This document shows, one piece after another, positions 11,945-31,020 of a stretch of 38,021 nt of DNA. The notes below the pieces were generated by a model. It was not told the origin of the DNA. It saw only the letters and a list, made by a program, of their open reading frames with translations, and searched no databases. This DNA comes from Acidobacteriota bacterium (GTDB lineage Bacteria; Acidobacteriota; Terriglobia; Acidiferrales; UBA7541). The stretch spans positions 1 through 38,021 of the forward strand of contig QHYE01000088.1 in the NCBI GenBank assembly GCA_003224055.1, read 5' to 3'. Position numbers and translations under genes: made by a program. Position 1 is the stretch's first letter, and the number at the start of each line of letters is the position of its first letter.

Positions 11945-12093
11945 AGCGCCGGCAACATTTCGACTCCGCGAACGGGCAGGAGCAGGTGTGGGCTCGCCTG
12001 TTCCACACCAAGGTCGCTTGACTTCTTTCCTCTACGGAAGTAAAAAATGAACTCCCCGCTGTGCTCTGGCCGTCAGAGTCAAGGAGACCGCTC

Positions 12094-13593
12094 ATGAATC
12101 GCCTTCTCAAGATTGTGTTCTTTGCAGTCTTTTGCCTGGTTTCATCCCGCCAAGTTTTCGCCCAGAACAAAACAACGCACAACCCAACCTGGTGGGCAAA
12201 ATACCAGTATCTCTCGCAAAACGCTGCTTCACCCGGCGGCGGCCCGGGTTCATCTCTCACGGTTGGCAGTAATGTCGACGTCTCCAATGAGTGCGGCCCT
12301 CAGAGCGAAACCTACATCACGCTGAATCCTGCATCCTCCAAATCGCTCGCGGCTGGGTCCAACGAAATTTTTCGAGATCCTATGCGTGGTTATTTCTCCA
12401 CCGACAGCGGCTCCACCTGGGGTGCTGTTGACGTGCCGCTTCCTCCACCGCTCCAGGGCACCAATGACACCCGCTTCGGCTCGGATCCCTCCCTGGTCTT
12501 CGATTCGCGCGGGAATCTGTTTTATAGCTACATCGTTGTGTATTTCGGCGCGGGCAATGGCGTCGACGGCTCGCAAATGGCGGTGGCGCGCTCGACCGAC
12601 GGTGGCAAGAGCTACCCGCAGCTCACCCTGTTTGGATTTCAGAGCGGCTCGAACCACTTCAATGACAAGCCGATGATTACCGCCGACTCCAATCCGGCGA
12701 GTCCTTTCCGCGACCGTGTCTACGTGGCTTGGGATGCCGCCAGTGGAGGAAACGCGATCGACGGGGGCATCCGTCTCGCGCGCTCCTCCGACGCTGGAGC
12801 GACTTTTTCAGTCGCGCGCGTTGACAATCCCTCTGGCCCGAGCCAGGGCATCGGCGCCGTCCCGTTTGTTGGCCCGAATGGCGAAGTTTATGTGGCCTGG
12901 AACGATTACAAAAATAATCTGATCGCCTTCAATAGCTCGTTTGACGGCGGCGTCACGTGGGACGCGCAGCGCACGATTTCGCAAAAGACAGCTGCTTTTG
13001 ATGTCGGTATTCCGGCGGAGTTGTTTCGCCGCGCGCTCGTTTACCCGGCATGCGACGCCGATCGGTCGGCCGGTGCTCACCGCGGGCGCCTCTACTGCTC
13101 TTGGATGGATCTCACCCCCGCCGGCGTCACCGACATTTTGAGTTCCTTTTCCGATGATCGCGGACTCACCTGGACAGTTCCCCTTCCTGTGACCGATCAA
13201 CTCCCGCAGCTCGTGGACCGCTTCAATCAGTGGCTTGCCGTCGATCCGGTCACGGGCGACGTCAACCTCTCCTTCTACGACACCCGCAACGACCCGACGA
13301 GCTCCCGCTTCATGACCGACACTTTTTTTACTCAGTCGGTTGATGGCGGCGTGACGTTCCGCTCTCCCAATGTGCGCGTAAGCTCCGTCAGCTCCAACGA
13401 GCACGATTGCAATGGCGTTTTCCCGTGTTTGGCGATCGACTATTTCAATCAACAGGGGGATTACGAAGGTCTGGCCTCTCGCGGAGGCATATCCCATCCG
13501 ATTTGGACGGACAGCCGCCGGCAGCTTGAATCATCCTCCGGGTACAAGACGAATCTTTTGATGGAAGAAGTATTCACTACGACAGTGAAGTGA
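12094..13593 (+). CDS. Secreted sialidase-like beta-propeller with Asp-box repeats
   Basis: Protein of 499 residues with a signal peptide (LLKIVFFAVFCLVSSRQVFAQ). At least six Asp-box/BNR repeats (S/TxDxGxTW) are visible: STDSGSTWG, STDGGKSYP, SSDAGATFS, SFDGGVTWD, SDDRGLTWT and SVDGGVTFR. The fold is therefore a propeller like exo-alpha-sialidases. The arginine triad of true sialidases cannot be assigned by eye, so enzymatic activity is open; many such proteins are sugar-binding or of unknown function. ATG12094 is chosen because AAGGAGA stands six bases ahead; an upstream in-frame TG start at 12061 lacks one. It is convergent with the S9 peptidase gene. Confidence 0.8.
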   Translation: MNRLLKIVFFAVFCLVSSRQVFAQNKTTHNPTWWAKYQYLSQNAASPGGGPGSSLTVGSNVDVSNECGPQSETYITLNPASSKSLAAGSNEIFRDPMRGYFSTDSGSTWGAVDVPLPPPLQGTNDTRFGSDPSLVFDSRGNLFYSYIVVYFGAGNGVDGSQMAVARSTDGGKSYPQLTLFGFQSGSNHFNDKPMITADSNPASPFRDRVYVAWDAASGGNAIDGGIRLARSSDAGATFSVARVDNPSGPSQGIGAVPFVGPNGEVYVAWNDYKNNLIAFNSSFDGGVTWDAQRTISQKTAAFDVGIPAELFRRALVYPACDADRSAGAHRGRLYCSWMDLTPAGVTDILSSFSDDRGLTWTVPLPVTDQLPQLVDRFNQWLAVDPVTGDVNLSFYDTRNDPTSSRFMTDTFFTQSVDGGVTFRSPNVRVSSVSSNEHDCNGVFPCLAIDYFNQQGDYEGLASRGGISHPIWTDSRRQLESSSGYKTNLLMEEVFTTTVK

Positions 13594-13610
13594 GAATGCA
13601 AATCGTTGGC

Positions 13611-13637
13611 GGAGAGACGGCTCGATTGCCGCTCTCC
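13611..13637. terminator. Hairpin between convergent genes, possible bidirectional terminator
   Basis: GGAGAG-A-CGGC pairs with GCCG-CTCTCC around a six-base loop, ten base pairs with one bulged A. It lies between the stop codons of two converging genes. It lacks a T-tract on either strand, so termination efficiency is uncertain. Confidence 0.45.
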
Positions 13638-13650
13638 CCTGGCTAACGGC

Positions 13651-15708
13651 TTACTTCACGTACAGCGCCAGCCAATCCAAAAATGTCTTGTACCAGAACT
13701 GGCTGTTCTGCGGCTTCAGCACCCAGTGTCCCTCATCTGGAAAGACCACGAGTTTGGAAGGCACGCCCTGCCGCTGCAGCGCGCTGAAAAATTCCAGGGA
13801 TTGCGTGTACGGCACGCGGTAGTCTCTTTCTCCCGCGATCACCAGCGTCGGCGTCTTGTACTTTCCGAGCTCTCCCGCGAATGTCACCGGCGCCCACTTG
13901 CGGTAACTTTCCGGATTCGTCCACGGGGTGCCCTGCATGTCGTGCTCTTCAAACCACAGTTCTTCTGTCGCGTACATCGAAACCTTGTCGTACACGCTCG
14001 CGTGGCTGATGATCGCTTTGAACCGCCCATTGTGCGTCGCAATCCAATCGGCCATGTAACCGCCGTAAGAACCACCCGCCGCAGCCATCCGCGTCCCATC
14101 AACGAAGGAATATTTTTTGAGCGTGTAGTCCACGCCATTCATCACGTCCACGTACGCTTTGCCGCCCCAATCATTCGTAATCTCGTCCGTGAATTTCTGC
14201 CCGTACCCCGTCGAGCCGCGCCGGTTGATCATCAGCGTCACGTAACCCGCCGCGGAAAAAACTTGCGGGTTCCACCGGTAGCTCCACGCGTTCGACGACA
14301 TCGTCTGCGGCCCGCCGTGCAATACCACCAGGAGGGGGTACTTCTTCGTCGCGTCGAATTTCGGCGGCCGTATCAGCATCGCCTGGACTTTCGTTCCTTC
14401 GGCGCCTTCGAACCAGAATGTTTCGGGTGGATTCATTTCCAGCGCGGCGAGGATTGAATCGTTTTGATGTGAAAGCTGGCGCACGTTCGATCCGTCGCTC
14501 GCGGACGCGAAAACTTCCGCGGGCATCGTCAGGCTGGTGCGCTCGAACGCCAACGTTTTCCCATCGGCGCTAAAGGAAATCGCCGTATTAAAAGTGTCCG
14601 CGATGATTTTCTTTGGCTCCGCGCCGGCGCGCGCGACCATTGCGTACACGGGTTTTTGCGTTTCGTTTTCGGCGGTGAAAAAAATCGTTTTGCTGTCTGC
14701 CGACGACGCAAGTTCCTCGGCACTGCGGTCAAAGCCTTCGGTGAGATTTTCCCTTTTTCCGCTTTGCCGGTCGTAGAGCATCACGCGCCAGCGATCGGCT
14801 TCGTACCCGGGAGTAAGTTGCGCGTGATACGCGATGAATTTTCCATCCGGTGAATAAACTGGACTTCCGTCGAAGCCCTGCTGCGTGGTGATGCGCTTCG
14901 CTTCGCCTCCCGCCACGGGAACGATAAATAAATCAGCGTTCGTGCTGATTGCTTCCATCCTGTCAGTGACGGCGGTGTAGCAGAGCTCCTTCGAGTCCGG
15001 CGAGAAATTAATATCTCCGGGCCCGCCCCGCTCGTCGGGTGGAATGTCGTAGTCCGCTCCGAGGGTGAGGTCGCGTGGCGCGGCGCTTCCGTCGGCTGGA
15101 ATCACAAAGAGATGGCCGCGTTTGCCTTCATTCCAGTGCGTCCAGTGCCGGTACAAAAGACGCTCAGCTACGTGCGCCTTCACTTTGTTCTTTTCTTTTT
15201 CCGCGTCGCGTTTGCTGTTGCAATCATCGTCTTTACAATCCGGATAAACAGAGGAAGTGAACGCGAGTGCCTTGCCGTCCGGCGACCACTTCACTATGTC
15301 GGCGCCTGTTGAAAGCTTCGTCAGCGGATGCGCTTCGCCGCCTTCCATCGAGAGCAAATACACCTGCGAATTGCCGCTGCGGGAAGAGAGAAACGCCAGC
15401 GTCTTGCCATCCGGCGACCACACCGGCGAGGAATCATGCCCGCTCCGCGTCAATTGCATCTCCGCGCCGCCCGCCGTTGACACGATCCAAATATTGCTCG
15501 CGCCGCGGTTCGCGTCCATGTCCGGCGTGGTCACCGTGTAGGCAATCCATTTTCCATCGCGCGAAATTTCCGGTTCGGTCACGCGGTGCATGCCGATCAT
15601 GTCCGTGAAAGTGATGGGATGTTTCGAACTGTCTTGTGCGAAACCGGAAATGTTGGCGGCTACTAGTAACGCGAATACGAAACTACAACGTAGAATGACG
15701 CGATTCAT
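13651..15708 (-). CDS. S9 family prolyl oligopeptidase / acylaminoacyl-peptidase
   Basis: Secreted or periplasmic serine peptidase of 685 residues that trims oligopeptides. A signal peptide (residues 1-25, ending ANISGFAQ) is followed by a WD40-like PD40 beta-propeller (about 40-420) with repeated SPDGKxLAFxS units. The alpha/beta-hydrolase domain lies at about 430-685. The catalytic triad is Ser547 (GGSYGGY), Asp629 (GERDYRVP) and His661 (DEGHWVL). Length and order match the dipeptidyl-peptidase/acylaminoacyl-peptidase branch. No clear partner genes; the neighbouring APC permease on the same strand could take up the amino acids released (inference). Confidence 0.92.
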   Translation of the reverse strand: MNRVILRCSFVFALLVAANISGFAQDSSKHPITFTDMIGMHRVTEPEISRDGKWIAYTVTTPDMDANRGASNIWIVSTAGGAEMQLTRSGHDSSPVWSPDGKTLAFLSSRSGNSQVYLLSMEGGEAHPLTKLSTGADIVKWSPDGKALAFTSSVYPDCKDDDCNSKRDAEKEKNKVKAHVAERLLYRHWTHWNEGKRGHLFVIPADGSAAPRDLTLGADYDIPPDERGGPGDINFSPDSKELCYTAVTDRMEAISTNADLFIVPVAGGEAKRITTQQGFDGSPVYSPDGKFIAYHAQLTPGYEADRWRVMLYDRQSGKRENLTEGFDRSAEELASSADSKTIFFTAENETQKPVYAMVARAGAEPKKIIADTFNTAISFSADGKTLAFERTSLTMPAEVFASASDGSNVRQLSHQNDSILAALEMNPPETFWFEGAEGTKVQAMLIRPPKFDATKKYPLLVVLHGGPQTMSSNAWSYRWNPQVFSAAGYVTLMINRRGSTGYGQKFTDEITNDWGGKAYVDVMNGVDYTLKKYSFVDGTRMAAAGGSYGGYMADWIATHNGRFKAIISHASVYDKVSMYATEELWFEEHDMQGTPWTNPESYRKWAPVTFAGELGKYKTPTLVIAGERDYRVPYTQSLEFFSALQRQGVPSKLVVFPDEGHWVLKPQNSQFWYKTFLDWLALYVK

Positions 15709-15841: not shown

Positions 15842-17254
15842 TCAGTTATTCGATTCGGATCGGTTGGGCTGCTTCCGAGCCCACAGCCAATTCACAAACG
15901 CGAGAACCGCGGTAATGGAAATTACGAGAAACTCTCCCCAGTGCATCCGCGTCACCAGGACGCCGGTGAAGAGCAGCGCAAGCGCGGCGATGAAGACGCC
16001 GCCGGGCAGGCGGAACGCATCCGCGTGCGGTTGTTTTCTTCGCAGCGCGGGAAGCGCCGCGGCTACCGAGCCATAAACGAAAAGGCGCGCGACGCTGGAC
16101 AAGAGAGCGTTCCATTTGAAATTGCCGGCGATCGAAAAGAGCAGAAGGACGGCGGCAAAAATCACGATGGAGAGATGCGGTGTTCGAAAGCGCAGGTGAA
16201 TCTTGCCAAAAAAGCCGGGAAAATCTCCTCCCGCGCCCATGGCATAGGTGATTCGCGGCGTATGCAACATGTTGCCGCTGAGATAGCCGTACGCTGATAC
16301 GAGTGTTCCTGCCGCGACGATTTGTACGCCCAACGCGGGCAAGAATCTTCGAGCGGAATCCACCGCCGGAGCGCTGGAAGCGGCAACATTGGCAATGGTG
16401 TGAATCACGAGATACTGCACAGCGATGAACAAAACCGTCGTCGCGGCAATGGCGGCGAAGAGCGCGAAGGGAATATCTTTGCGCGCGTCGCGCGTTTCTC
16501 CGGTGGCGATGAGCGCCGCCTCGAATCCGCCGTAGGAGTAAATCATCAGAAGCACGGCTCCGAACCAGTCCGCCGACGTCGGAGTCGTGGCAGCGGGCGT
16601 GACTCGAATCTCAGGATGGAGCGCCAGCGCGACTAGTCCGGCGATGACAAAAAAGCCGAGCAACGCCACCTTCGTGACAGTGAAGAAATTGCTGAGACGG
16701 TTTCCGCCGGTCACCCCGCGATAATTCACGATCGCAAGAAATCCAATAAGAACCGTCAGCACGCTTGCCCTGACAAGCGGAGCCCTGACGCTGGGAAAAA
16801 ATTCCCTCAGATAGATGATGAACAAGTTTGCGACCGCAGAGGCGGCAGCAATCCGGCTCAGCCACGTCAGCCAGCCGTTCTGAATGGCAAGAAATCGTCC
16901 GAACGCCACTCTCGCGTAAAGATACGGCCCGCCGGCCTCCCGGAATTGCGACGCGACTTCCGCCATGCACGCCGCGATGATCGAGATCCCCGCAAACGCC
17001 ACCAGGAATCCGAGCGGACTCCATTTTCCGAGGCGCGCCGCAATCAGCGCGGGCAAACCAAAAATGCTCGCGCCGATCATGGTATTGACCATCAGCGCGG
17101 CAAGGCTCCAGCGACCGATGGTGCGAACGAGCCCTTTTGCGGATTCGGTCAAGTGCGCTTCCGCGGGTACAGGGATTTGCCGAAAAGTTTTCGCATCATT
17201 GTCAAAGGAAGTGGCGCCAGCGTAGCACAACTCGCTAGCCCTCTGAGAATTCAT
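15842..17254 (-). CDS. APC-superfamily amino acid permease
   Basis: Inner-membrane transporter of 470 residues with about 12 hydrophobic segments starting near residue 48. The first segment carries the family glycine motif in NTMIGASIFGLPALIA, followed by a charged loop and GISIIAACMAEVASQF. YSYGGFEAALIATGE in the sixth segment fits the substrate and gating region of the family. Substrate is an amino acid or amine, coupling to protons or exchange, not resolvable here. The N-terminal 40 residues are soluble; a later start is possible because the Shine-Dalgarno is weak. It is divergent from the thioredoxin gene. Confidence 0.88.
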   Translation of the reverse strand: MNSQRASELCYAGATSFDNDAKTFRQIPVPAEAHLTESAKGLVRTIGRWSLAALMVNTMIGASIFGLPALIAARLGKWSPLGFLVAFAGISIIAACMAEVASQFREAGGPYLYARVAFGRFLAIQNGWLTWLSRIAAASAVANLFIIYLREFFPSVRAPLVRASVLTVLIGFLAIVNYRGVTGGNRLSNFFTVTKVALLGFFVIAGLVALALHPEIRVTPAATTPTSADWFGAVLLMIYSYGGFEAALIATGETRDARKDIPFALFAAIAATTVLFIAVQYLVIHTIANVAASSAPAVDSARRFLPALGVQIVAAGTLVSAYGYLSGNMLHTPRITYAMGAGGDFPGFFGKIHLRFRTPHLSIVIFAAVLLLFSIAGNFKWNALLSSVARLFVYGSVAAALPALRRKQPHADAFRLPGGVFIAALALLFTGVLVTRMHWGEFLVISITAVLAFVNWLWARKQPNRSESNN

Positions 17255-17811: not shown

Positions 17812-19149
17812 ATGGCGACGAACCGCGGGCTCTTTTCCCGCAATTTCAAAAAGACTTTTCCCATTGCTGTTCGCGGCGAAGGCTGCTGGATCATCGACGA
17901 AAGTGGCCGTCGATTCCTGGACGCTTCGGGCCAGGCTGCCGTCGTCAGCATCGGCCATGGCGTGCAGGAAATCGGGCTCGCCATGGCCGAGCAATCCTCG
18001 CAGATTGCCTTTGCGCACACCTCACAATTTCATACGGCTCAGGCTGAAAAACTTGCGGAGCGGCTTCTCGCCATTGCTCCTCCAAATTTCCGCAAGGGCG
18101 GCCGGGTGTACTTCACTTCCGGTGGCTCGGAGGCGACAGAGACAGCGATTAAACTGGTTTGCCAATATCACCTCGAGTCCGGCCAGAAGAATCGTTATCG
18201 CGTCCTTTCGCGACGCCAGAGCTATCACGGCAGCACACTTGGCGCGATGTCCGTCAGCGGCAATGTCGCTCGCCGGGCGCCCTACGAGCCCCTCATCCCC
18301 GATTGGGGCCACATCGCGCCGTGCTTCTGCTATCACTGCCCGTTCGAAAAAACGTTTCCGCAGTGCGAACTCGCTTGCGCCGACGACTTGCAAACTCATT
18401 TGGATGGAGGCAAAAAAGAGGATGCCGCCGCTTTTATTCTCGAACCCGTTGTTGGCGCGACGCTCGGTGCTGCCGTGCCGCCGGATGGTTACGTTTCACG
18501 TATCGCCGAAATCTGCCGCAAAAACGGGATACTTCTCATCGCCGACGAAATCATGACCGGCATGGGCCGCACCGGAAAGCCTTTTGCCGTTCAGCACTGG
18601 GGTATCGAGCCAGACCTGATTCTGGTGGGGAAGGGAGTCGCGAGCGGTTACGCGCCGCTCGGCGCGGTGCTGGTTTCCGCGCGCGTTGTCGAAGCGTTCG
18701 AACGCGGCTCGGGTGCGTTCATGCACGGCTTCACATACCAGGCGCATCCGGTTTGCACTGCCGCCGGAAACGCCGTCCTGGATTATCTCGAGTCGCAAAA
18801 ACTTTTTGATCGTGTCGCTCCCGCAGGAAAAAATCTCCGTGACGCTCTTTCTTCACTTTTGTCGCATCCCCACGTCGGTGATGTGCGAGGCCTCGGCCTG
18901 CTTCTCGGCGTGGAGTTCGTCAAAGACAAATCCACGCGCGAGCCATTTCCCAAGTCCGAAAATATCGCGGAGAAAATTCGCCAGGCCTGTCTCGACGAAC
19001 ATGTTCTGACTTATCCGACACAAGGCTGTGTGGATGGCCTGCGCGGCGATCACATCCTGCTCGCGCCGCCGTTCACGATTTCGCCGGAAGAATCCGCGCT
19101 GATTCCTCGCGCGCTGCATTCGGCTTTGGCAAGAGTTTTTCCGGCTTGA
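17812..19149 (+). CDS. Class III PLP-dependent aminotransferase
   Basis: Fold-type I aminotransferase of 445 residues of the omega-aminotransferase/AGAT-II group. It carries SGGSEATETAIKL (phosphate-binding turn), the Asp of LIADEIMTGMGRTG that contacts the pyridine nitrogen, and the Schiff-base Lys274 in LVGKGVASGYAPL. The substrate is probably an omega-amino acid or amine with pyruvate or 2-oxoglutarate as acceptor; it cannot be fixed from sequence. A cluster of Cys (CFCYHCPFEKTFPQCELAC, near 180) in the middle of the chain is unusual and conserved only in some relatives. It starts at ATG17812 without an obvious Shine-Dalgarno. Confidence 0.88.
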   Translation: MATNRGLFSRNFKKTFPIAVRGEGCWIIDESGRRFLDASGQAAVVSIGHGVQEIGLAMAEQSSQIAFAHTSQFHTAQAEKLAERLLAIAPPNFRKGGRVYFTSGGSEATETAIKLVCQYHLESGQKNRYRVLSRRQSYHGSTLGAMSVSGNVARRAPYEPLIPDWGHIAPCFCYHCPFEKTFPQCELACADDLQTHLDGGKKEDAAAFILEPVVGATLGAAVPPDGYVSRIAEICRKNGILLIADEIMTGMGRTGKPFAVQHWGIEPDLILVGKGVASGYAPLGAVLVSARVVEAFERGSGAFMHGFTYQAHPVCTAAGNAVLDYLESQKLFDRVAPAGKNLRDALSSLLSHPHVGDVRGLGLLLGVEFVKDKSTREPFPKSENIAEKIRQACLDEHVLTYPTQGCVDGLRGDHILLAPPFTISPEESALIPRALHSALARVFPA

Positions 19150-19206
19150 TACCGGATTGAAGTGTTTGTATTGCAGCCGGCTCGTTCTTATTTCTTTGGA
19201 GAGAAA

Positions 19207-20400
19207 ATGCGCCCTCGTCCCAGCAAGGTATTGCCCGCTTTGGCCGCCTGTCTTTCGCTGACGTTTGCCCTTCACGCTCAAGAGAAACCTTCTGCAAAAC
19301 CGCGTGCGCGTGATCTCGGCGTCCCTTTTGACGGCACGCCCGGCCCGCTCAATGCCATCACCGATGTTTCCGGCGTCATCGTCGGCCACACTACGCTGAT
19401 TTCCGGAGAGGGAAAACTGCAGGTCGGCAAGGGCCCTGTGCGCACTGGCGTCACCGCCGTTCTTCCTCGCGGAAAAGACTCCATGAACAATCCCGTTTTT
19501 GCCGGCTGGTGGTCGTTGAACGGCAACGGCGAAATGACCGGCACAACCTGGGTGGAAGAATCTGGGTTTCTCGAAGGCCCGGTGATGATCACCAACACGC
19601 ACAGTGTCGGCGTGGTTCGCGACGCTGTGATTCAGTGGCGCGTGGCGCATGGGCAGCCCGATCCCACTGGCTACTGGTGGTCGCTCCCCATCGTCGCGGA
19701 AACCTGGGATGGCTGGCTCAACGACATCAACGGCTTTCACGTCAAACCGGAGCATGCCCTTCGCGCCATCGACTCTGCACACGGCGGCGCTGTGGAAGAA
19801 GGGGCGGTCGGCGGCGGGACGGGAATGGTTTGCAATGGCTTCAAAGGAGGCATCGGCACCTCTTCCCGCAAGTTAGGCGAAAAAGAGGGCGGCTACACGG
19901 TTGGAGTTTTGGTGCAATGCAATTACGGTTCGAAAAATAATCTACGCATTGCCGGTATTCCCGTCGGCCGGGAAATTCCCGCGGACGATCCGTACGCCGG
20001 CACCGCATTTTTCAACGACGACCACGGCTCGATCATCGTCGTGGTTGCCACGGACGCCCCGCTCGTCGCGCATCAGCTCAAGCGACTTGCACGGCGCGTT
20101 TCTCTCGGACTCGGCCGCGCCGGCAGCATTTCTGGCAACGGCTCCGGCGACATTTTTATCGCGTTCTCCACTGCCAATTCCGGCGCTGCCGCCGCCGACC
20201 ATGTGGTCGACCTGAAAATGTTGCCCAACGACAAGCTCGATCCCGTTTTTGGCGCCACTGTGCAAGCCACTGAAGAAGCAATCATCAATGCCATGGTCGC
20301 CGCCGAAACCATGACCGGCATTGAAAATCATCGCGTCCGCGCGCTCCCCCACGACCAGCTCCGCGCCGTCCTAAAGAAATACAACCGCCTGACCCAATGA
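19207..20400 (+). CDS. P1/DmpA family self-processing aminopeptidase (S58)
   Basis: Ntn-hydrolase-like peptidase of 397 residues with an N-terminal signal peptide (LPALAACLSLTFALHAQ), so probably periplasmic. Family members remove N-terminal D- or beta-amino acids after autocleavage into two chains. The cleavage site and nucleophile fit HG-Ser275 in HGSIIVVVATDAPL. Other family segments are DVSGVIVGHTT, VGGGTGMVCNGFKGGIGTSSR and GRAGSISGNGSGDIFIAFST. The ATG at 19207 follows GGAGAG and begins the signal peptide; a start at 19162 would lengthen it without reason. It lies 57 bases after the aminotransferase on the same strand and may be cotranscribed. Confidence 0.9.
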   Translation: MRPRPSKVLPALAACLSLTFALHAQEKPSAKPRARDLGVPFDGTPGPLNAITDVSGVIVGHTTLISGEGKLQVGKGPVRTGVTAVLPRGKDSMNNPVFAGWWSLNGNGEMTGTTWVEESGFLEGPVMITNTHSVGVVRDAVIQWRVAHGQPDPTGYWWSLPIVAETWDGWLNDINGFHVKPEHALRAIDSAHGGAVEEGAVGGGTGMVCNGFKGGIGTSSRKLGEKEGGYTVGVLVQCNYGSKNNLRIAGIPVGREIPADDPYAGTAFFNDDHGSIIVVVATDAPLVAHQLKRLARRVSLGLGRAGSISGNGSGDIFIAFSTANSGAAAADHVVDLKMLPNDKLDPVFGATVQATEEAIINAMVAAETMTGIENHRVRALPHDQLRAVLKKYNRLTQ

Positions 20401-21258: not shown

Positions 21259-22458
21259 TTAAATTACCGGCACGGCCATCTTTCTCGCGGGATTGAAAAA
21301 GGGAAGCGGCACGACTTTTGCGGAAACCGTTTGGCGTACGGCTTCGACGGTCATTTCCATGCTGAGCTTTGACCCGACCGCTGAACTCTCCCGGCCTACG
21401 CATGCCAGCGCGATCATTTTTTTCAGGGTTGGCGACCACGTTGTTGATGTCGCCTTGCCCACTTGCCGGCCGTTGCGATACACCGGCACGGCCACGCGAG
21501 ACGCCATGCTCGGCACCTGCGGCGCCATTTTCAATTTGTCGTAGAGCGCTTCCACTTCGTTCCAATTAATTTCCAGCCCCACCAACGCGCGCTCCGCGCC
21601 TTTTTTCGCTTCCAGCGCGAGCGCCTCGCGCCCCACAAAAGTTTCTTTCTTCAAGTCCACCAGCTTCCCCAATCCAATTTCCGCCGGAGAATACTTCTGC
21701 GATTCGATCAGCGCTTTCTTGCTGGAAATGTAATCGACTTCGATCAGAATCAGCCCCGCTTCGATTCGCGCGATGTCCAGCGCGATCATCCCCGCCGGAT
21801 GAATATCGAATGCCTTGCCTTTCGCGGCCAGCGCATCCCACACTTTGATCGCTTCGCGCCACGGCATCCAAACCTCAAAACCTAGGTCGCCCGTATACCC
21901 CGTGCGCGAAATGTCTACCGGCACGCCAGCGATTTTTCCGCGTGTCACGCGAAAATATTTCAGGTTCTCGATTTTCGCGTCCGTCACTTCGTGCAGCAGG
22001 CGCCCTGAGGTCGGCCCTTGCAAAGCTAACGCGGCGACTTGCTCCGATATATCTTCGATGCTTACGTCCAGGCCCAGTGCATTCTGCCGGAACCACCGCA
22101 AGCTCGGATCCGCCGCCGTCCATCGGTAATCATTTTCGCCAAGCCGGGTGATCGTCCCGTCGTCGATCACTTTGCCTTCGGGGTCGCACCAGCAGCAGTA
22201 GATCACCTGATCCACTACAACCTTATTGATATCCCGGGAAATCACGCGGTTCACGAACTTCGTGGCATCCCGCCCCATCACGCGGTATTTGAACAGCGGA
22301 GAAATATCGATCAGCGCCGCCGAATTCCGGATGGCGTTGTACTCGTGCTCGTGGTGCATCTCGTACACGCTGTCTGTGTACTGGCCGGACCATTCGCGGT
22401 AATTCAGGCTCTCGCAGAGCGCCAGCGTCCTCTCGTGAAACGCAGTTCCGACCGGCAC
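21259..22458 (-). CDS. GcvT-family aminomethyltransferase-like protein
   Basis: Folate-binding aminomethyl/methyl-transfer protein of 399 residues related to the T-protein of the glycine cleavage system and to dimethylglycine/sarcosine/DMSP demethylases. Visible family segments are IDISPLFKYRVMGRDATKF, ISRTGYTGDLGFEVW and the C-terminal VGKATSTTWSPTLKKMIAL. The start is GTG22458 because GGAGGAGG lies just upstream; an in-frame ATG at 22518 would add 20 residues with no ribosome site. gcvH and gcvP are not adjacent, so it may be a demethylase of a methylated amine and not part of the glycine cleavage complex (inference). Confidence 0.85.
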   Translation of the reverse strand: MPVGTAFHERTLALCESLNYREWSGQYTDSVYEMHHEHEYNAIRNSAALIDISPLFKYRVMGRDATKFVNRVISRDINKVVVDQVIYCCWCDPEGKVIDDGTITRLGENDYRWTAADPSLRWFRQNALGLDVSIEDISEQVAALALQGPTSGRLLHEVTDAKIENLKYFRVTRGKIAGVPVDISRTGYTGDLGFEVWMPWREAIKVWDALAAKGKAFDIHPAGMIALDIARIEAGLILIEVDYISSKKALIESQKYSPAEIGLGKLVDLKKETFVGREALALEAKKGAERALVGLEINWNEVEALYDKLKMAPQVPSMASRVAVPVYRNGRQVGKATSTTWSPTLKKMIALACVGRESSAVGSKLSMEMTVEAVRQTVSAKVVPLPFFNPARKMAVPVI

Positions 22459-24162: not shown

Positions 24163-25779
24163 GTGATTTTGCCCAAAGTCATTCCGATCTTGATTGTATG
24201 TTCGTGCCTGTCCGCCACGGCACCCGCCCAGGAAGTCTCCCCGAGTCCCCCGACAATCCCGCCTTCTTCCGCGGTGGAACACACTCAGGATTTCAGCGAG
24301 ATCGTCGTTCGTATTACCTCGGTGAGGCTTACTGCCTCGGCTAAACTTAGTATCAAGGGGAAGCTTGGCCCTAAGCTTGGCCAAGATGTTTACTTCGGTA
24401 CGGGCTTTTGCCTGGATGCCGCGTGTCGTTTCATCGCAACCAACTATCACGTAGCTGCGACCGCGCGGCCTCATAAGATCAAACGAGAAAAGATCATCCA
24501 ACGATATTTTGCCACGGGTCCCCACGATAAAGGTGCTACTGCGAACGTTGTCCAGAACGACGTGCTTGCATTTGCCATAAAACGGGACCTTGCCATCTTC
24601 GAATTACAGCGCCCGCTGCCCCATCACCATGGTCTTACTTTCAGTCTCGACGAACTACAGGTTGGCCAGGAAGTAGACATCTACGGTTACCCCATGGGAA
24701 TGATCAATCCTATTCGCAAACTGACCCGATTTCCCGCCACATTCAAAGGCCCGACGACATCTGGCCTCCTAGCCTTTGACTACCAGTTGTCCGCCGGTAA
24801 ACCAATTACTATAGGGGGTGCAAGCGGCGGCATCGTCGTTGATAGGAAAAGTGAAAAGATTGTAGGTATTCTGAGCGGGAGCGGGTTCAATGAAACGATG
24901 GCGCTGGCTGTGCCGGTTCAAACCCTGGCCGACTTCGTGAGCAAAGTACAGCCCTTCCTAGCGCAGAGGGTATTCCCCACCACCAAGGATGTCTCACCAG
25001 TCTCGGCAGACCTTTATCCAAAATTCGTACCACGCCGTACCGATGGGCTGCAGCACCGACCCGAGGAACCCTATGAAGTCAGCGTGCTACGAAAAAAAGC
25101 GCAACTTCTGGCAGATAGCATGCGCAATTTTATAGCTGTGCAGAGTTTTGCCTGGGGCTCGGGCGATAAGGAGCCTTCTGCTCAGGCAGAGTATGAAGTC
25201 CGGATTATCGACGGCGTTCAGCGATTCCGCAGGTATCCCGACGGCGAGAGGGAGTTGGAGGAGATACCGAACCCTCGTGTGAATGGCTGGGTGAATCCGG
25301 CTGACGAATGGTCGAAAGTGCCTAACATGGTTGGAACGGAATTCCGATTAAAAGTTCATCAAGCCGCCGACTTAGTTGTGAACGAGCAACGGATGAAGGT
25401 CTTTCAGTATTACGCCAGCGCCGAGGATAACTTGTGTCCTTTCGCACCCGTCGAAGATTTTGGCTTCTTCACAATCAACAAAACTGTCGCCGTCGCATGT
25501 TACGGGGAAGTTTGGACGGACGAGGATGCGAACATAATCCGAATATCGGAGCATTTAGAGCTTTCTGACAAATTGAAAGCCTATCGAGGATGGGAGGACT
25601 GTCAGGTCGTCCTTACCTACGGTTGGCTCAACCGAGAGAATGACCCTCCTCGGCTCGTTCCTCTGACCATTTTTGCAGTGGCTCGCTACAAGAAGCACGT
25701 CCATTGGTGTCGCGGCCAGTTTAGGGACTATCAGATATTCAGCACCCGGGCCAGGATCATTGCAAGTAGTCAGCCCTAG
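24163..25779 (+). CDS. Secreted trypsin-like serine protease with unknown C-terminal domain
   Basis: Protein of 538 residues exported by a signal peptide (PKVIPILIVCSCLSATAPAQ). A chymotrypsin-fold domain (about 40-270) has a credible triad: His96 in TNYHVAA, Asp142 in KRDLAIFEL and Ser221 in GGASGGIVV. The nucleophile motif is GASGG in place of the usual GNSGG. The C-terminal 270 residues (motifs FAWGSGDKEPSAQAEYEV, FGFFTINKTVAVACYGEVW and WCRGQFRDYQIFSTRARI) match nothing I recognise; Cys pairs suggest an extracytoplasmic fold. The start is GTG24163, directly ahead of the signal peptide. Composition is more AT-rich than the neighbours, and the gene lies between the two halves of a broken vapBC locus, pointing to acquisition by insertion. 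Confidence 0.8.
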   Translation: MILPKVIPILIVCSCLSATAPAQEVSPSPPTIPPSSAVEHTQDFSEIVVRITSVRLTASAKLSIKGKLGPKLGQDVYFGTGFCLDAACRFIATNYHVAATARPHKIKREKIIQRYFATGPHDKGATANVVQNDVLAFAIKRDLAIFELQRPLPHHHGLTFSLDELQVGQEVDIYGYPMGMINPIRKLTRFPATFKGPTTSGLLAFDYQLSAGKPITIGGASGGIVVDRKSEKIVGILSGSGFNETMALAVPVQTLADFVSKVQPFLAQRVFPTTKDVSPVSADLYPKFVPRRTDGLQHRPEEPYEVSVLRKKAQLLADSMRNFIAVQSFAWGSGDKEPSAQAEYEVRIIDGVQRFRRYPDGERELEEIPNPRVNGWVNPADEWSKVPNMVGTEFRLKVHQAADLVVNEQRMKVFQYYASAEDNLCPFAPVEDFGFFTINKTVAVACYGEVWTDEDANIIRISEHLELSDKLKAYRGWEDCQVVLTYGWLNRENDPPRLVPLTIFAVARYKKHVHWCRGQFRDYQIFSTRARIIASSQP

Positions 25780-25814: not shown

Positions 25815-26054
25815 TCATTTCCGATACCGGCAGCGTGCCATCGCCGCCAGAGTTTTGGGCTTTCCCCTATAATTCAGGCACCCGAACACCCGCTCGATGG
25901 TGGTTACGGGAAAGGGCGATAACGTTTTCAAGAAAACCCCTCCGTCCACGGCCTCCACGGCCAATTCTGTTCCGCTCTCCCATTTTTGTGAGTCCCGCAG
26001 CGACTTCGGCAGTACTACCTGTCCCTTCGACGATATTCTGACCGTTTTCGTCAT
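25815..26054 (-). CDS. AbrB/MazE/SpoVT-domain protein, VapB-type antitoxin without a toxin
   Basis: Protein of 79 residues. The swapped-hairpin DNA-binding domain is at residues 1-45 (VRISSKGQVVLPKSLRD, then WESGTELAVEAVDGG). The linker GCLNYRGKPKTLAAM is the start of the toxin-binding tail in VapB proteins of this type. After this Met the sequence diverges into ARCRYRK and stops, shorter than the usual 85-95 residues, so the toxin-wrapping end is damaged. ATG26054 follows AAGGAGGGA. The expected vapC should start within a few bases of the stop, but the opposite-strand protease gene ends there; a VapC remnant occurs 1.8 kb further along the same strand. Confidence 0.75.
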   Translation of the reverse strand: MTKTVRISSKGQVVLPKSLRDSQKWESGTELAVEAVDGGVFLKTLSPFPVTTIERVFGCLNYRGKPKTLAAMARCRYRK

Positions 26055-26273
26055 TCTCCCTCCTTCCATACTGTATGCGTTATGCTGCCAGTGCTGTTGT
26101 GAAATCCCTCTCAATTTTGCCATTGGGTCAGCCCACTTGTGTCTGCGTCCGCGTCTCAGTAAAATGGCGAGTCCTTCGATTAATCTAGCTCCATCCTATC
26201 TATGCTGCACAGCGCCGCGCGGTCGAATTGAAAATCATCCGCCGCTAGCTCGCCAGCATCGGAGTCATACCGA

Positions 26274-27926
26274 ATGGGTCAGCATTACGACGTTATCGTC
26301 ATCGGCGGCGGTCACAATGGGCTGGTCAACGCCGCGTACCTCGCCAAGGCAGGGAAGAAGGTCGTGGTTCTCGAACGCCGCCACGTTCTCGGCGGCGCGG
26401 CGGTCACTGAGGAGATCTTCCCCGGCTTTCTTTTTTCGGAATGCTCGTACGTCGTCTCGCTGCTTCGTCCGGAAATTATCCGCGAACTTGATCTTCCGCG
26501 CCACGGTCTCGAAATTCTTCCTCTCGACGGAACTTTTTCACCGATGCCCAGCGGTGACTACCTCTGGCGCGTGAATGATCACGCGAAATCCATCCGCGAC
26601 ATCCGCCGCCACTCCCGCCTCGACGCCGAAGCCTACGACGAATTCTCGAAGATGATGACGCCCATGTGCCGCTTTGTGAAGCCCATGCTCTCCATGGTTC
26701 CGCCCGACCCCACGACGCTCAATCCCAAAGACCTCAAGCAGCTTCATTTCCTGTTACAGCGCTTCCGTGAACTCTCTTCGGACGAGCGCTACACGCTCGT
26801 CCAGCTTATGACCATGAGCTCCGCGGATTTTCTCGACCAGTGGTTCGAAACGGACGTCCTCAAAGCCACCATGTCCGCCTCTGGCATCATCGGCACCTTC
26901 CTCGGTATTCGCTCGCCCGGCACCGCCTACGTTCTCCTCCATCACTACATGGGCGAAATCGACGGCGCATTCCGTTCCTGGGGCTTCAGCCGCGGCGGCA
27001 CCGGTGCTATTTCGAACGCGATTGCGGATGCGGCGCGCGAAGCCGGCGTCGAGATTCGCACCAAAGCGCCAGTCGGAAAAATTCTCGTGAAGCATGGCCG
27101 TGCCACAGGCGTCGTCCTGCAATCCGGCGAAGAACTCTTTGCCAATGTCGTCTCCTCCAGCGTGGACCCGCATCTCACCTTCGAAAAATTTCTCGAACCC
27201 AGCGAGCTTCCCGCCGATTTCCTCGAAGGCGTCCGCCGCTACAAATTCCGCGGCTCTTCCGGCAAAGTCAATCTCGCCCTCGACGCGCTTCCCAATTTCA
27301 AATGTTTCCCCGGCCCCGACGCGCATCTTCGCGGCGCCATCTCCATTTCTCCCAGCATGGAATACATGGAGCGCGCCTACGACGACGCCAAGTACGGCCA
27401 CTTCTCCCGCAAGCCGTACATTGACATGGTCATCCCCAGTCTCACGGATCCCAGCGTCGCGCCTCCCGGCAAACATGTGCTCTCGTGCTTCGTGCAATAC
27501 GCGCCTTACAAACTCGCCGAAGGCAACTGGGACGATCAGAAAGAAGCCTTCGGCGACAACGTCATCAACACCATCGCCGAATACGCGCCCAACATCAAAG
27601 ACATCATCATCGGCCGCCAGGTCCTCACGCCGCTCGATCTCGAGCGCGAATTCGGCCTCACGCAAGGCAACATTTTCCAGGGCGAGCTTTCTCTCGAACA
27701 GCTTTTCTTCCTTCGCCCCGTCGCCGGCTGGGCCTACTACCGCACGCCCATTCACAACCTTTATATGTGCGGTTCCGCCACGCATCCCGGCGGCGGCATC
27801 ATGGGCGCCAACGGCCGCATCGCCAGCCAGGTCATCTTGAAAGAGTGGTCGCACGCTTTGCGTGCGCACCGAACAAAGTCCGGTTCTTCGGACTCCGCTG
27901 CTGCCGCGCCGAAAGCGGCCAACTGA
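26274..27926 (+). CDS. PYROXD2/CrtI-like FAD-dependent oxidoreductase, copy 1
   Basis: Flavin amine oxidase/phytoene-desaturase-superfamily protein of 550 residues. The FAD motif IGGGHNG is at residues 10-16, with the ribose-binding Glu34 in VLERR. It has RHVLGGAAVTEEIFPGF, a mid-domain GGTGAISNAIADAAREAGVEI, and the C-terminal FAD loop YMCGSATHPGGGIMGANGR. The domain order is that of eukaryotic PYROXD2 and its bacterial homologs, whose substrates are undefined. The C-terminal 25 residues are a Ser/Ala tail. A second family member starts two bases after the stop, so the two form an operon. A carotenoid role is possible but no carotenoid gene is near. Confidence 0.88.
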   Translation: MGQHYDVIVIGGGHNGLVNAAYLAKAGKKVVVLERRHVLGGAAVTEEIFPGFLFSECSYVVSLLRPEIIRELDLPRHGLEILPLDGTFSPMPSGDYLWRVNDHAKSIRDIRRHSRLDAEAYDEFSKMMTPMCRFVKPMLSMVPPDPTTLNPKDLKQLHFLLQRFRELSSDERYTLVQLMTMSSADFLDQWFETDVLKATMSASGIIGTFLGIRSPGTAYVLLHHYMGEIDGAFRSWGFSRGGTGAISNAIADAAREAGVEIRTKAPVGKILVKHGRATGVVLQSGEELFANVVSSSVDPHLTFEKFLEPSELPADFLEGVRRYKFRGSSGKVNLALDALPNFKCFPGPDAHLRGAISISPSMEYMERAYDDAKYGHFSRKPYIDMVIPSLTDPSVAPPGKHVLSCFVQYAPYKLAEGNWDDQKEAFGDNVINTIAEYAPNIKDIIIGRQVLTPLDLEREFGLTQGNIFQGELSLEQLFFLRPVAGWAYYRTPIHNLYMCGSATHPGGGIMGANGRIASQVILKEWSHALRAHRTKSGSSDSAAAAPKAAN

Positions 27927-27928
27927 CC

Positions 27929-29518
27929 ATGCCCCTCGGACAGCGCGTAGTTCTCATCGGAGGTGGACACAACGCTCTCATCGCCGCTTTTTATCTCGCC
28001 AAGGGCGGATTCAAGCCGCTCGTTCTTGAGCGCCGGGAAATGGTCGGCGGCGGCGCCGTCACCGAGGAATTTTATCCCGGCTTCCACTCTTCCACGCTCG
28101 CGCACACTCTCGGCCCATTACGCGCTGACATCGCGAAAGACTTACTGCTCGAAAGGTTTGACTATGAAGTGATTCAACCCGATCCCCGCGTCTTCGCGCC
28201 CGCGCCGGATGGCCAAGCGCTCTTCTTCTACAACGACGCAGACAAGACCGCCGCTAGTATCGCCGGCCTCTCGGCGAAAGACGCCGCGAAATACACGCAA
28301 TTCGCCGTGTCGCTCGCGGATACCGCCGCCTTCTTCACGCAGCTCTCTTCCATTACGCCGCCGGCGATCGATCATCCCACGCCCGAAGATCTCTGGAATC
28401 TTTTGAAAACCGGCCGCGGCGTCCGCAGCCTTGGAAAAACCGGCATCTTCGATCTGCTCCGCTGGGGCCCCATGGCCGTCGCGGACTTCGTGGCCGAATT
28501 TTTCGAAACCGAACTCCTTCGCGCTGCCATCGCCGCGCGCGGCATTTTTGGCACGGCGCTCGGGCCCTGGTCTGCGGGATCGACCGCCGTCCTTCTTCTG
28601 CGCGCTGCTGCCGACTCGCATCCCGTCGGCTCCGCTGCATTTCCGCGTGGCGGACTCGGTTCCTTCACGCGCGCCCTTGCCGAATCCGCCAAACAGGCGG
28701 GCGCAGAAATTCGCACCGACGCCGAAGTCCAGCAGATTCGAATCAAAGACGGCGCTGTCACCGGCGTCGTTCTATCCAACGGCGAAGAAATCGCCGTCGA
28801 AGCCGTCGTCTCCGGCGCCGATCCCAAGCGCACGTTTTTCAATTTAGTCGACGCTTCCCAGCTCGACCCGACCTTCGCGAATCGCATGAAAAATTTCCGC
28901 GCCAATGGCACCGTCGCCAAAGTCAATCTCGCCCTCGGCGGGCTGCCCAGTTTTACCGCTCTCGATTCGAACGAGACTCCGCTCAAAGCGCTCTCCGGCC
29001 GCATCCATATCGGCCCGGAAATTGATTATCTCGAACGCGCCTTCGACGCTTCCAAGTATGGCGATTTCTCGAAAACTCCCTGGCTCGACGTGACGATTCC
29101 CACCATCCTTGACCCTTCTCTCGCTCCGGACGGCAAGCATGTCCTCTCCGCCTACGCCCAGTTCGCTCCCTACAAATTAAGGGAAGGGAACTGGGACGCG
29201 CGACGCCACGACCTGGGCCACACCGTCGTCGAAACGCTCGCTGCTTACGCCCCGAATCTTCCCGGCCTGGTCGAAGGCATTCAGGTCATCACGCCCAAGG
29301 ATCTGGAAACCTGCTACGGCTTCACCGGCGGCCACATTTTCCACGGCGAACTCGCTCTCGATCAGCTCTTCACCATGCGTCCCGTTCTCGATTGGGCGCG
29401 CTACAAAACTCCGATCCGCGGCCTTTTTCTCTGCGGCTCCGGCACGCATCCCGGCAACGGCCTCACAGGCGCTTCCGGCGCCAACGCCGCCCGCGAAATC
29501 ATCCACGCCCTCCGATGA
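27929..29518 (+). CDS. PYROXD2/CrtI-like FAD-dependent oxidoreductase, copy 2
   Basis: Protein of 529 residues of the same family, diverged from the upstream copy. FAD motif IGGGHNA is at residues 10-16 (the last Gly is Ala), followed by VLERREMVGGGAVTEEFYPGF, with the C-terminal loop FLCGSGTHPGNGLTGASGANAAR. Start ATG27929 lies two bases past the previous stop, so translation is coupled; a longer in-frame opening reaching back into copy 1 is antisignal and not used. Both copies keep the cofactor-binding loops, suggesting a heteromeric pair or two successive oxidation steps. Substrate unknown. Confidence 0.87.
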   Translation: MPLGQRVVLIGGGHNALIAAFYLAKGGFKPLVLERREMVGGGAVTEEFYPGFHSSTLAHTLGPLRADIAKDLLLERFDYEVIQPDPRVFAPAPDGQALFFYNDADKTAASIAGLSAKDAAKYTQFAVSLADTAAFFTQLSSITPPAIDHPTPEDLWNLLKTGRGVRSLGKTGIFDLLRWGPMAVADFVAEFFETELLRAAIAARGIFGTALGPWSAGSTAVLLLRAAADSHPVGSAAFPRGGLGSFTRALAESAKQAGAEIRTDAEVQQIRIKDGAVTGVVLSNGEEIAVEAVVSGADPKRTFFNLVDASQLDPTFANRMKNFRANGTVAKVNLALGGLPSFTALDSNETPLKALSGRIHIGPEIDYLERAFDASKYGDFSKTPWLDVTIPTILDPSLAPDGKHVLSAYAQFAPYKLREGNWDARRHDLGHTVVETLAAYAPNLPGLVEGIQVITPKDLETCYGFTGGHIFHGELALDQLFTMRPVLDWARYKTPIRGLFLCGSGTHPGNGLTGASGANAAREIIHALR

Positions 29519-29535
29519 TTCCTTCCTTATCTTCT

Positions 29536-29567
29536 GTAGGGGCGCCCGCCGCGGCGGGCTGCGCCCT
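29536..29567 (+). repeat. GTAG-headed GC-rich hairpin (REP-like), copy 2
   Basis: GTAG (29536-29539) is followed by a long hairpin: GGGCGC-CCGCC pairs with GGCGG and GCGCCC around a two-base GC loop, with a three-base GCT bulge. It sits 17 bases after the flavoprotein stop and just ahead of the aminotransferase. It has the head-plus-palindrome architecture of RAYT-mobilised REP elements. Confidence 0.5.
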
Positions 29568-29588
29568 CTTAAGCAGAGGTGCGTGACA

Positions 29589-30941
29589 ATGCCTACCATT
29601 GACCGCACCAAACTCAAGGCTCTCCAAAAACGCGAAGAATCCCACTTCCTCGCTGACCATCCCAAATCCGCCGCTCTCTACCAACGCGCGCAATCCTCCC
29701 TCCTCGGAGGTGTCCCCATGAACTGGATGAAAAAATGGGCCGGCGCTTTTCCGATTTTTGTGAAATCGGCCAACGGCGCGCACTTTATCGACGTGGACGG
29801 CCGCGACTACATTGACCTCTGCCTCGGCGACACCGCCGCGATGACCGGCCACTCGCCTGCCATCGTCGCCGAAGCCGTCGCCCGCCGTGCCAGAGAAGGC
29901 ATCACCTTCATGCTTCCCACCGAAGACGCCCTCTGGGTCGGCGAAGATCTCCAGCGCCGCTTCGGTTTGCTCTACTGGCAATTCACGCTCACCGCCACCG
30001 ACGCCAACCGCTTCTCCATTCGAATCGCCCGCGAAATCACCCGGCGCTCGAAAATTCTCGTTTTTCACTATTGCTACCACGGCACCGTGGACGAATCCTT
30101 CGCCACGGTCGAAAACGGCGCAGTCGCCCCGCGCCGCGGCAACATCGGCCCGCCCGTCAATCCCGCTGAAACCACGCGCGTCGTCGAATTCAACGATCTC
30201 AACGCCCTCGAAGACGCCCTCAAGCATCGCGACGTCGCCTGCATTCTAGCCGAGCCCGCCATGACCAACGTCGGCATCATCCTCCCCGACGACGGTTACT
30301 GGCGCGCAGCACGCGAACTCGCGCGCCGTCACGGCGCGCTCCTCATCGCCGACGAAACGCACACCATCTGTGTCGGCCCCGGCGGTTGCACCGCCGCATG
30401 GAAACTCGATCCCGACATGCTCGTTTTTGGCAAAGCCATCGGCAGCGGCATTCCTGGCGCCACCTACGGTTGCAGCGAAGAAGTCGCCCAGCGCATCTCC
30501 GCCCGCATCCATCTCGAAGACTGTGATGTCGGCGGCATCGGCGGCACGCTCGCCGGCAACGCGCTCTCGCTCGCCGCCATGCGGACCACGCTCGAACACG
30601 TGCTTACTCCCGCCGCATTTGAACGCATGATCCCGCTCGCCCGGCGCTTCAACGACGGCGTCGCCGCAGAAATCCGCGTGCACCATCTTCCCTGGAACGT
30701 GATCCAGCTTGGCGCCCGTGCCGAATACACCTTCGCCGCAAAACCTCCGCGCAACGGCGGCGAATCCGCCGCGGCTGCCGATTTCGAACTCGAACGCTTC
30801 CTCCACCTCTACGCCCTCAACCGCGGCGTCCTCCTCACGCCGTTCCACAACATGGCCCTCATGTCCCCCGCCACCACTGAAGCCGACATCGACGCCCACA
30901 GCAATCTCTTCGCCGCCGCCACCCGCGAACTGACCTCCTAG
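29589..30941 (+). CDS. Class III aminotransferase of the glutamate-1-semialdehyde aminomutase type
   Basis: PLP enzyme of 450 residues. The cofactor site shows HYCYHGTVDES, LIADETHTICVGPGG and Schiff-base Lys282 in VFGKAIGSGIPGA. The opening SLLGGVPMNWMKKWAG and the FIDVDGRDYIDLCLGDTAAMTGH segment are those of HemL-like aminotransferases that act on diverse amino acids; the histidine and heme biosynthesis context for a true HemL is absent. ATG29589 is used; GTG29583 is nearby in frame. The gene is the third of a same-strand run with two PYROXD2-like flavoproteins, consistent with catabolism of an amine or amino acid (inference). Confidence 0.87.
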   Translation: MPTIDRTKLKALQKREESHFLADHPKSAALYQRAQSSLLGGVPMNWMKKWAGAFPIFVKSANGAHFIDVDGRDYIDLCLGDTAAMTGHSPAIVAEAVARRAREGITFMLPTEDALWVGEDLQRRFGLLYWQFTLTATDANRFSIRIAREITRRSKILVFHYCYHGTVDESFATVENGAVAPRRGNIGPPVNPAETTRVVEFNDLNALEDALKHRDVACILAEPAMTNVGIILPDDGYWRAARELARRHGALLIADETHTICVGPGGCTAAWKLDPDMLVFGKAIGSGIPGATYGCSEEVAQRISARIHLEDCDVGGIGGTLAGNALSLAAMRTTLEHVLTPAAFERMIPLARRFNDGVAAEIRVHHLPWNVIQLGARAEYTFAAKPPRNGGESAAAADFELERFLHLYALNRGVLLTPFHNMALMSPATTEADIDAHSNLFAAATRELTS

Positions 30942-30965
30942 TAGGACAGACATTCCTGTCTGTCC
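30941..30965 (+). repeat. GTAG-headed perfect hairpin (REP-like), copy 3
   Basis: Begins at the last base of the aminotransferase stop codon. GGACAGACA pairs perfectly with TGTCTGTCC around TTCC (30944-30965), and GTAG (30941-30944) overlaps its first base. It may also act as a transcription attenuator, but no T-run follows. Confidence 0.55.
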
Positions 30966-31020
30966 GCTCTCTCGCATGTCTCATGTAGAATGGTGGGCCT
31001 GAACCGCAAGGATGAAATTT

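Follow-up and report, generated by a model that had tools for sequence, protein, structure and literature searches.

A PYROXD2-type flavoprotein pair and a GcvT-like protein as a probable folate-coupled N-demethylation module in Acidobacteriota

We analysed a stretch of 38,021 nt from an Acidobacteriota bacterium (contig QHYE01000088.1 of assembly GCA_003224055.1, forward strand; hereafter the window), which encodes two adjacent flavoproteins of the PYROXD2/CrtO type, FAD1 and FAD2, and a GcvT-like tetrahydrofolate protein, P0004 (Table 1). The three genes probably form a folate-coupled module that removes N-methyl groups oxidatively from a methylated amine or amino acid, with FAD1 and FAD2 probably acting as a heteromeric or sequential pair. 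This reading is favoured because FAD1 and the GcvT-like gene co-occur in 46 genomes of the phylum and lie within 5 kb of each other in 40 of these; because P0004 is nearest to the C-terminal domain of trimethylamine N-oxide (TMAO) demethylase and also matches dimethylglycine dehydrogenase/oxidase and sarcosine oxidase; because GbcA/CntA-like Rieske oxygenases and the formyltetrahydrofolate deformylase PurU recur near the trio; because, in all six alphaproteobacterial loci examined, the trio adjoins genes for a Rieske protein and for a class III aminotransferase; and because a variant of human PYROXD2 tracks N-methyl-lysines and N-methylpipecolate.

The linkage was followed in a sample of 199 genomes from the phylum, using a threshold of E ≤ 1e-100 for FAD1-type matches. 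A FAD1-type gene is present in 56 genomes and a P0004-type gene in 46, and both occur in 46, a co-occurrence with a hypergeometric probability of 1e-35 by genome and 1e-22 by genus when relatedness is ignored. On named contigs, 527 matches were confirmed, and the 80 best made up a further set, in which 79 are titled as Acidobacteria(ota) groups and one is labelled Deltaproteobacteria; three of these loci (L078, L091 and L131) lie on the same contigs as G044, G059 and G058. These named-contig loci favour close relatives because they were found using FAD1 sequences from trio loci, and the phylum sample is the less biased of the two. FAD2 comes next after FAD1 in all 74 named-contig loci that extend 700 bp or more downstream, and the possibility, allowed for in the initial annotation of the window, that the paralogues occur independently in most genomes did not hold. 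In 66 of the 71 named-contig loci with room upstream, a divergent GcvT-like gene lies no more than 5 kb from FAD1, the gap between the two measuring 21-3695 bp with a median of 315 bp. Families further removed frequently have all three genes on one strand, in the order GcvT-FAD1-FAD2. Among the 36 genomes of the genus (G000 to G035, the window's own included), a FAD2 match exists at the locus in 34, that is, in all but G005 and G016, and P0004 is present in 33, being missing from G005, G016 and G028. Moreover, P0004 is on the same stretch in 14 of 20 fetched neighbourhoods (17 from the genus and three from other families) and is divergent from FAD1 wherever both are visible. The GcvT-like gene is the constant third partner of FAD1 and FAD2, and the folate partner is core to the set.

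GcvT folate-binding domains were matched in P0004, whose GTG start codon stands behind a GGAGG (read by eye). Among solved structures, the C-terminal part of TMAO demethylase comes closest to it (E 1.7e-52), followed by T proteins, sarcosine oxidase and dimethylglycine dehydrogenase/oxidase, and the TMAO demethylase model gives 286 bits, as against 84 and 92 bits for LigM/DesA. Assignment of P0004 as a glycine-cleavage T protein was rejected: the scores remain under the cut-offs (226.1 vs 300 and 170.7 vs 235.85 bits), and P0004 is not the T protein of this genome since a separate GcvT, encoded on contig C83, adjoins genes readable as gcvH and gcvP. When the copies were aligned against a solved T-protein (duplicates of some genomes being included in the counts), D120, the second Asp of the GcvT DD motif, was found to be Asp in 113 and Glu in four of 117 copies, and E215 and R251, aligned with the T-protein Glu and Arg, were invariant in 115 of 115. 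We take these three positions to be folate-site or catalytic residues of GcvT.

FAD1 and FAD2 are paralogues beyond chance, since they share 43% identity over 534 aligned positions (E 4e-148). Their description in the initial annotation as adjacent paralogues two bases apart, with GHNG and GGGIMGANGR in the first and GHNA and GNGLTGASGAN in the second, was confirmed, the 2 bp separating the FAD1 stop from the FAD2 ATG. Both proteins score above the cut-offs of Pfam Amino_oxidase and other FAD-binding families, and their top NCBIfam match, aligned over the full length, is CrtO (322.1 bits for FAD1 and 278 for FAD2), whose cut-off of 1000 is not reached. The AlphaFold model of FAD1 (mean pLDDT 81.3, with residues 468-487 and 502-508 below 50) has carotenoid desaturases as its nearest solved folds, then nicotine oxidoreductase, putrescine oxidase and MAO, with Rab GDI structures also among the matches; these matches of a predicted structure support the fold, not any substrate. 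In a tree of 95 sequences, computed by a quick method and containing several long branches, the FAD1-type copies from trio loci form one clade (44 rows, SH-aLRT 99) and the FAD2-type copies a separate one (35 rows, SH-aLRT 98); as judged from this tree, FAD1 and FAD2 are two old lineages. FAD2 evolves faster, with 53-59% identity between the window and three distant genomes (L056-L058) as against 76-79% for FAD1. The constant adjacency of the genes and the two old clades fit a heteromer or a two-step oxidation, and adjacency, co-inheritance and unequal rates together would fit subunits or consecutive enzymes. Tandem copies were also seen: G069 (L174, L175), a single-contig genome of 2.4 Mb, has 13 FAD1-like genes in two tandem arrays, one of which has two GcvT-like genes beside it, and L067 has three tandem distant relatives (positions 7678-13745; 28-30% to FAD1) near xanthine-dehydrogenase-like genes (by eye).

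The trio also occurs on plasmids of cultured Alphaproteobacteria. A search of plasmids gave 38 records matching FAD1 at E ≤ 1e-60, and 13 regions were examined, of which six carry the trio, one a flavoprotein and an annotated gcvT, and six no GcvT; one GcvT match from S. meliloti was added, and record NZ_CP093529, also with both genes, is outside the 13 regions. On the six trio plasmids (from Rhizobium sp. SL42, Shinella zoogloeoides ATCC 19623, Shinella sp. PSBB067, Ensifer adhaerens, Fuscovulum ytuae and Parasedimentitalea marina), FAD1, FAD2 and GcvT form a same-strand run; both junctions overlap in three of the four annotated trios and nearly touch in the fourth. Within 10 kb of each of the six trios lie genes for a Rieske protein and for a class III aminotransferase, and in Fuscovulum the aminotransferase gene overlaps the start of FAD1. 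ABC-transporter genes are near the trio in the four annotated loci, the binding protein of Fuscovulum being PotF-like (316 vs 636 bits). The aminotransferases are not orthologues of AT1, the class III aminotransferase that follows FAD2 in the window: two that were tested correspond to PRK07036, and one is nearer to GntE. Amine chemistry with transamination is plausible in view of these six loci, although a class III aminotransferase is also found in two of the seven plasmid loci without the full trio (L201 and L202). The region with a single PYROXD2-like protein and an annotated gcvT, from Shinella sumterensis (L199), has a carnitine-3-dehydrogenase-like gene and a BKACE-type gene as neighbours. 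Among the stand-alone relatives, that of Roseovarius (L203) has genes of Rieske type and for aldehyde dehydrogenase and choline dehydrogenase in its vicinity, that of L201 has mixed company, and no comparable company was seen at L196, L200, L202 and L204, save for the aminotransferase of L202. The S. meliloti 1021 match, on pSymA (L195), is a GcvT-like gene (38% to P0004) that has a PurU relative (45%) roughly 1 kb away, and no FAD1 match is present within that 21 kb stretch.

PurU occurs in 24 of the 80 named-contig loci (401.5 vs 285.95 bits in a family check), and GbcA/CntA-like Rieske oxygenases of two types occur in 19. The Rieske proteins score best as glycine betaine monooxygenase, yet below the cut-off, and their nearest solved relative is carnitine monooxygenase. 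A Glu-Cys-x-x-Cys motif beside the iron in CntA and Stc2 is given as the signature of group V Rieske enzymes acting on quaternary ammonium compounds (PMC10952381). By eye, this motif was counted in 18 printed motifs among 43 Rieske matches, 15 of them at trio loci. In the genome of the window, contig C10 carries PurU and, 50 bp away and facing it, a Rieske gene (62% to the one of L056).

In the proposed mechanism, FAD1 and FAD2 would bring an N-methyl group on a small amine or an amino acid to the oxidation level of an imine, and the GcvT-like protein would place the one-carbon unit onto tetrahydrofolate to give 5,10-methylene-tetrahydrofolate; PurU, encoded elsewhere in the genome, could regenerate tetrahydrofolate with release of formate. 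For a quaternary amine, the Rieske oxygenase would take off the first methyl group, and an omega-placed primary amine, once freed, might be deaminated by a class III aminotransferase (AT1 here). Candidate substrates that we infer are N6-methylated lysines, other omega-N-methyl amino acids or amines, N-methylproline and stachydrine.

In dimethylglycine dehydrogenase/oxidase (DMGDH/DMGO) and heterotetrameric sarcosine oxidase (TSOX), a flavin oxidises the N-methyl group and a GcvT domain, the part matched by P0004, hands the one-carbon unit to tetrahydrofolate. Their flavin domain is of the DAO type and is fused or held in another complex, whereas FAD1 is of the Amino_oxidase/CrtO type. Tdm, the TMAO demethylase of Methylocella silvestris, likewise carries out folate-linked demethylation and has the GcvT-like domain nearest to P0004 among solved structures, but there an unrelated catalytic domain occupies the N-terminus of the same chain, whereas P0004 is a protein in its own right that has two PYROXD2-type flavoproteins as partners. 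The trio thus has in common with DMGDH/DMGO, TSOX and Tdm a redox partner constantly linked to a GcvT-fold tetrahydrofolate protein and the conserved folate-site and catalytic residues of that fold; it lacks a DAO-family flavin domain fused to GcvT, FAD1 and FAD2 being separate, non-DAO proteins. By analogy, the trio would work like dimethylglycine dehydrogenase or TMAO demethylase without belonging with them, given its other flavin family and its separate GcvT. The catabolism of glycine betaine, carnitine and stachydrine (GbcA, CntA, Stc2) offers a stepwise N-demethylation logic and Rieske enzymes of group V, to which those beside the trio in many loci seem related. For N-methylproline, S. 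meliloti uses StcD (PMC12239276), which differs from the PYROXD2-type pair; no such pair was found for betaine, carnitine or stachydrine demethylation in the open-licence literature searched.

As for human PYROXD2, in one study a missense variant accounts for 50%, 48% and 21% of the variance of N6-methyllysine, N6,N6-dimethyllysine and N-methylpipecolate, respectively, and N6,N6,N6-trimethyllysine is listed as well (PMC8109053); in earlier nuclear magnetic resonance studies, the association was assigned to trimethylamine and dimethylamine. The reaction of PYROXD2 is described as unclear in another paper (PMC8777681). The N-methyl-lysine associations fit the N-demethylation reading. A provisional, non-authoritative sequence of human PYROXD2, which served as a lead only, shows 42% identity to FAD1 and 34% to FAD2, and agrees with the length of 581 residues and with Gly426 and Val498. 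These two residues are those reported in the second paper (PMC8777681). A broader proposal, which may hold but on which we would not count, is that the PYROXD2 family consists of oxidases that demethylate N-methyl amines or amino acids: the bacterial FAD1/FAD2 heteromer with its dedicated GcvT-like protein would parallel dimethylglycine dehydrogenase in split form and use N6-methyl-, dimethyl- or related omega-N-methyl amino acids as substrates, and human PYROXD2 would act likewise on N6-methyl- and N6,N6-dimethyl-lysine. If so, the signals from metabolite genome-wide association studies would be explained, and an orphan human enzyme, with one of the strongest published metabolite associations and a report of severe infantile disease, would gain a reaction class; a split, PYROXD2-based design would also join the known folate-coupled demethylases, in a widespread soil phylum. 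In bacteria, the link with an acceptor of folate one-carbon units and with betaine-type Rieske oxygenases makes the PYROXD2 question directly testable. A previous link between PYROXD2 and demethylation was not found in the open-licence PMC literature that the search covered, where the one paper listed for the two together was a heart expression study.

Several observations weigh against N-demethylation by the trio. In the phylum sample, a GcvT-like gene passing the threshold was missing from ten of the 56 genomes that carry a FAD1-type match, and in six of the 46 with both genes the two are apart, either on another contig (G083, G102, G124 and G133) or at a distance of 6.3 kb (G086) or 17.6 kb (G174). 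The divergent GcvT-like gene is absent in five of the 71 named-contig loci, one of which (L092) has it elsewhere in the locus and four of which have no copy in the locus. Rieske and PurU genes are missing from most of the 80 named-contig loci; about half of the Rieske neighbours have the group V motif, 14 being of an Asp type (NYLDGG/NFLDGG), and only two of the seven alphaproteobacterial Rieske proteins tested match it. Furthermore, six of the 13 plasmid regions hold a stand-alone relative without GcvT, some in sugar or cobalamin surroundings. The human signal is an association only, at a locus that also spans HPS1. Human PYROXD2 is single-copy, and the tie to it rests on the provisional sequence, which falls outside both bacterial clades. 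We know of no GcvT-type partner of human PYROXD2.

A different grouping, in which FAD1, FAD2 and the aminotransferase form the functional unit, joining amine oxidation to transamination, and the GcvT-like gene is incidental, appears improbable. It draws on the position of AT1 directly behind FAD2 in 18 of the 36 genus genomes (some loci ending at contig ends) and on the unrelated class III aminotransferases beside all six alphaproteobacterial trios, but AT1 follows FAD2 in none of the 80 named-contig loci, has decayed in one relative (fragments at L045), and is far less constant than the GcvT-like gene (46 of 56 genomes; 66 of 71 loci); class III aminotransferases are found, too, near plasmid loci without the full trio, as noted above. 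AT1 is accessory, not core to the FAD1/FAD2 set, and its candidacy as a core member was rejected on these counts. The co-occurrence search suggested in the initial annotation thus upheld the paralogues as constant partners and not AT1; of the scheme offered there, a heterodimer or two-step oxidation plus transamination, the first part fits the constant pairing and the two clades, whereas the second met with an aminotransferase outside the core and with the GcvT-like protein as constant third partner. The role of FAD2 bears on the pair itself. That it is a structural or electron-transfer partner of FAD1 and not a second catalyst seems rather unlikely; FAD2 diverges faster and yet stays adjacent, as such a partner might, but it retains the FAD-binding loops and many residues in common with FAD1.

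Removal of O-methyl groups, as from aromatic methoxy compounds, instead of N-methyl groups would find parallels in the folate-dependent O-demethylases LigM and DesA, which share the GcvT fold, in the Asp-type motif of about half of the Rieske neighbours and in the PYROXD2-like paralogues of L063-L065, which lie beside pobA/pcaB-looking genes (by eye). We judge it very improbable, as P0004 scores far lower with LigM/DesA than with TMAO demethylase, the neighbouring genes include those for permeases of amino acids, for peptidases and aminotransferases and for PotF-like transport, and LigM and DesA, to our knowledge, need no flavoprotein. That FAD1 and FAD2 are carotenoid-type desaturases or ketolases is hardly credible: CrtO beta-carotene ketolase is their best curated match and carotenoid desaturases are the closest solved folds, but both CrtO scores stay far under the cut-off, at 322 and 278 against 1000, the genomic company differs, no phytoene synthase or other carotenoid gene was recognised among the neighbours inspected, and carotenoid synthesis offers no role for a folate enzyme as constant partner. 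Carotenoid chemistry was set aside on the scores and the neighbours.

AT1 passes the cut-off of the NF005453/PRK07046 'transaminase' model (662 vs 425 bits) and fails those for glutamate-1-semialdehyde (GSA) aminomutase (227.7 vs 398 bits, and 222.4 vs 527.3 bits for HemL). The initial annotation, which had placed a GSA-type aminotransferase after the pair, was thus right as to a class III enzyme, and 'GSA-type' holds at the level of the superfamily only, AT1 being below the aminomutase cut-offs. Beyond the 18 genus genomes in which it follows FAD2, AT1 is reduced to fragments in one more (G032), and a further two copies of lower similarity (65-66%) lie on other contigs of G002. Between FAD2 and AT1, the 70-bp gap gave no terminator-like site on the + strand and just a modest hairpin (z -1.82); the scan for promoters and terminators was uninformative, with one promoter-like site (shuffle mean 1.0) and five terminator-like sites (shuffle mean 6.1). 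A repeat-like string in this gap was rejected as an element family, having two matches in the window at up to two mismatches, a number equalled in 12 of 100 shuffles.

Table 1. Features of the window (positions on the forward strand).
Feature	Position	Strand	Description
S9 peptidase, Dpp5-like	13651..15708	-	529 bits vs cut-off 900; in 7 of 20 fetched loci, at least 73% identity
APC-family amino acid permease	15842..17254	-	in 7 of 20 fetched relatives' loci, at least 46% identity
AT2	17812..19149	+	class III aminotransferase PRK07483, 494.7 vs 485 bits; in 10 of 20 fetched loci
S58 (DmpA-type) aminopeptidase	19192..20400	+	in 10 of 20 fetched relatives' loci
GcvT-like (P0004)	21259..22458	-	tetrahydrofolate protein, divergent from FAD1; start codon GTG, 22458-22456
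Inter-gene segment	22459..26273		lower G+C; trypsin-like ORF and MazE-like ORF; read as insertion
Trypsin-like ORF	24163-25779		within the inter-gene segment
MazE-like ORF	25815-26123	-	within the inter-gene segment
FAD1 (P0001)	26274..27926	+	PYROXD2/CrtO-type flavoprotein, 550 aa; motifs GGGHNG, GGGIMGANGR
FAD2	27929..29518	+	diverged FAD1 paralogue, 529 aa; motifs GGGHNA, GNGLTGASGAN
AT1	29589..30941	+	class III aminotransferase (PF00202), PRK07046 'transaminase'; accessory

The GcvT-like gene had been noted initially as lying 3.8 kb from FAD1 across a foreign-looking segment, and the distance was borne out; the G+C content of the segment is lower, at 52-54% as against 57-64% across positions 26001-31000. 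We read the segment as an insertion that pushed the GcvT-like gene away from FAD1 in the window. Its trypsin-like open reading frame (ORF) has a 51% relative at L048 (6568-8085, opposite strand), between the GcvT-like gene and FAD1 of another species of the genus. Elsewhere in the window, an IS1595-type transposase gene (PF12762) is located at 9327-10229.

Among the neighbouring genes, APC-type permease matches (a generic family) are found in 45 of the 80 named-contig loci. The permease, the S9 and S58 peptidases and AT2 of Table 1 are neighbours of the trio in the genus cluster. L039, L045 and L047 have a large M28-type peptidase (716-768 aa class, by eye) between AT2 and the S58 peptidase, which is not present in the corresponding gap of the window (19149-19192). 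PYROXD2-like relatives in the genus at L063, L064 and L065 adjoin Rieske genes with the E-C-x-x-C motif, and the surroundings of L063 resemble aromatic catabolism.

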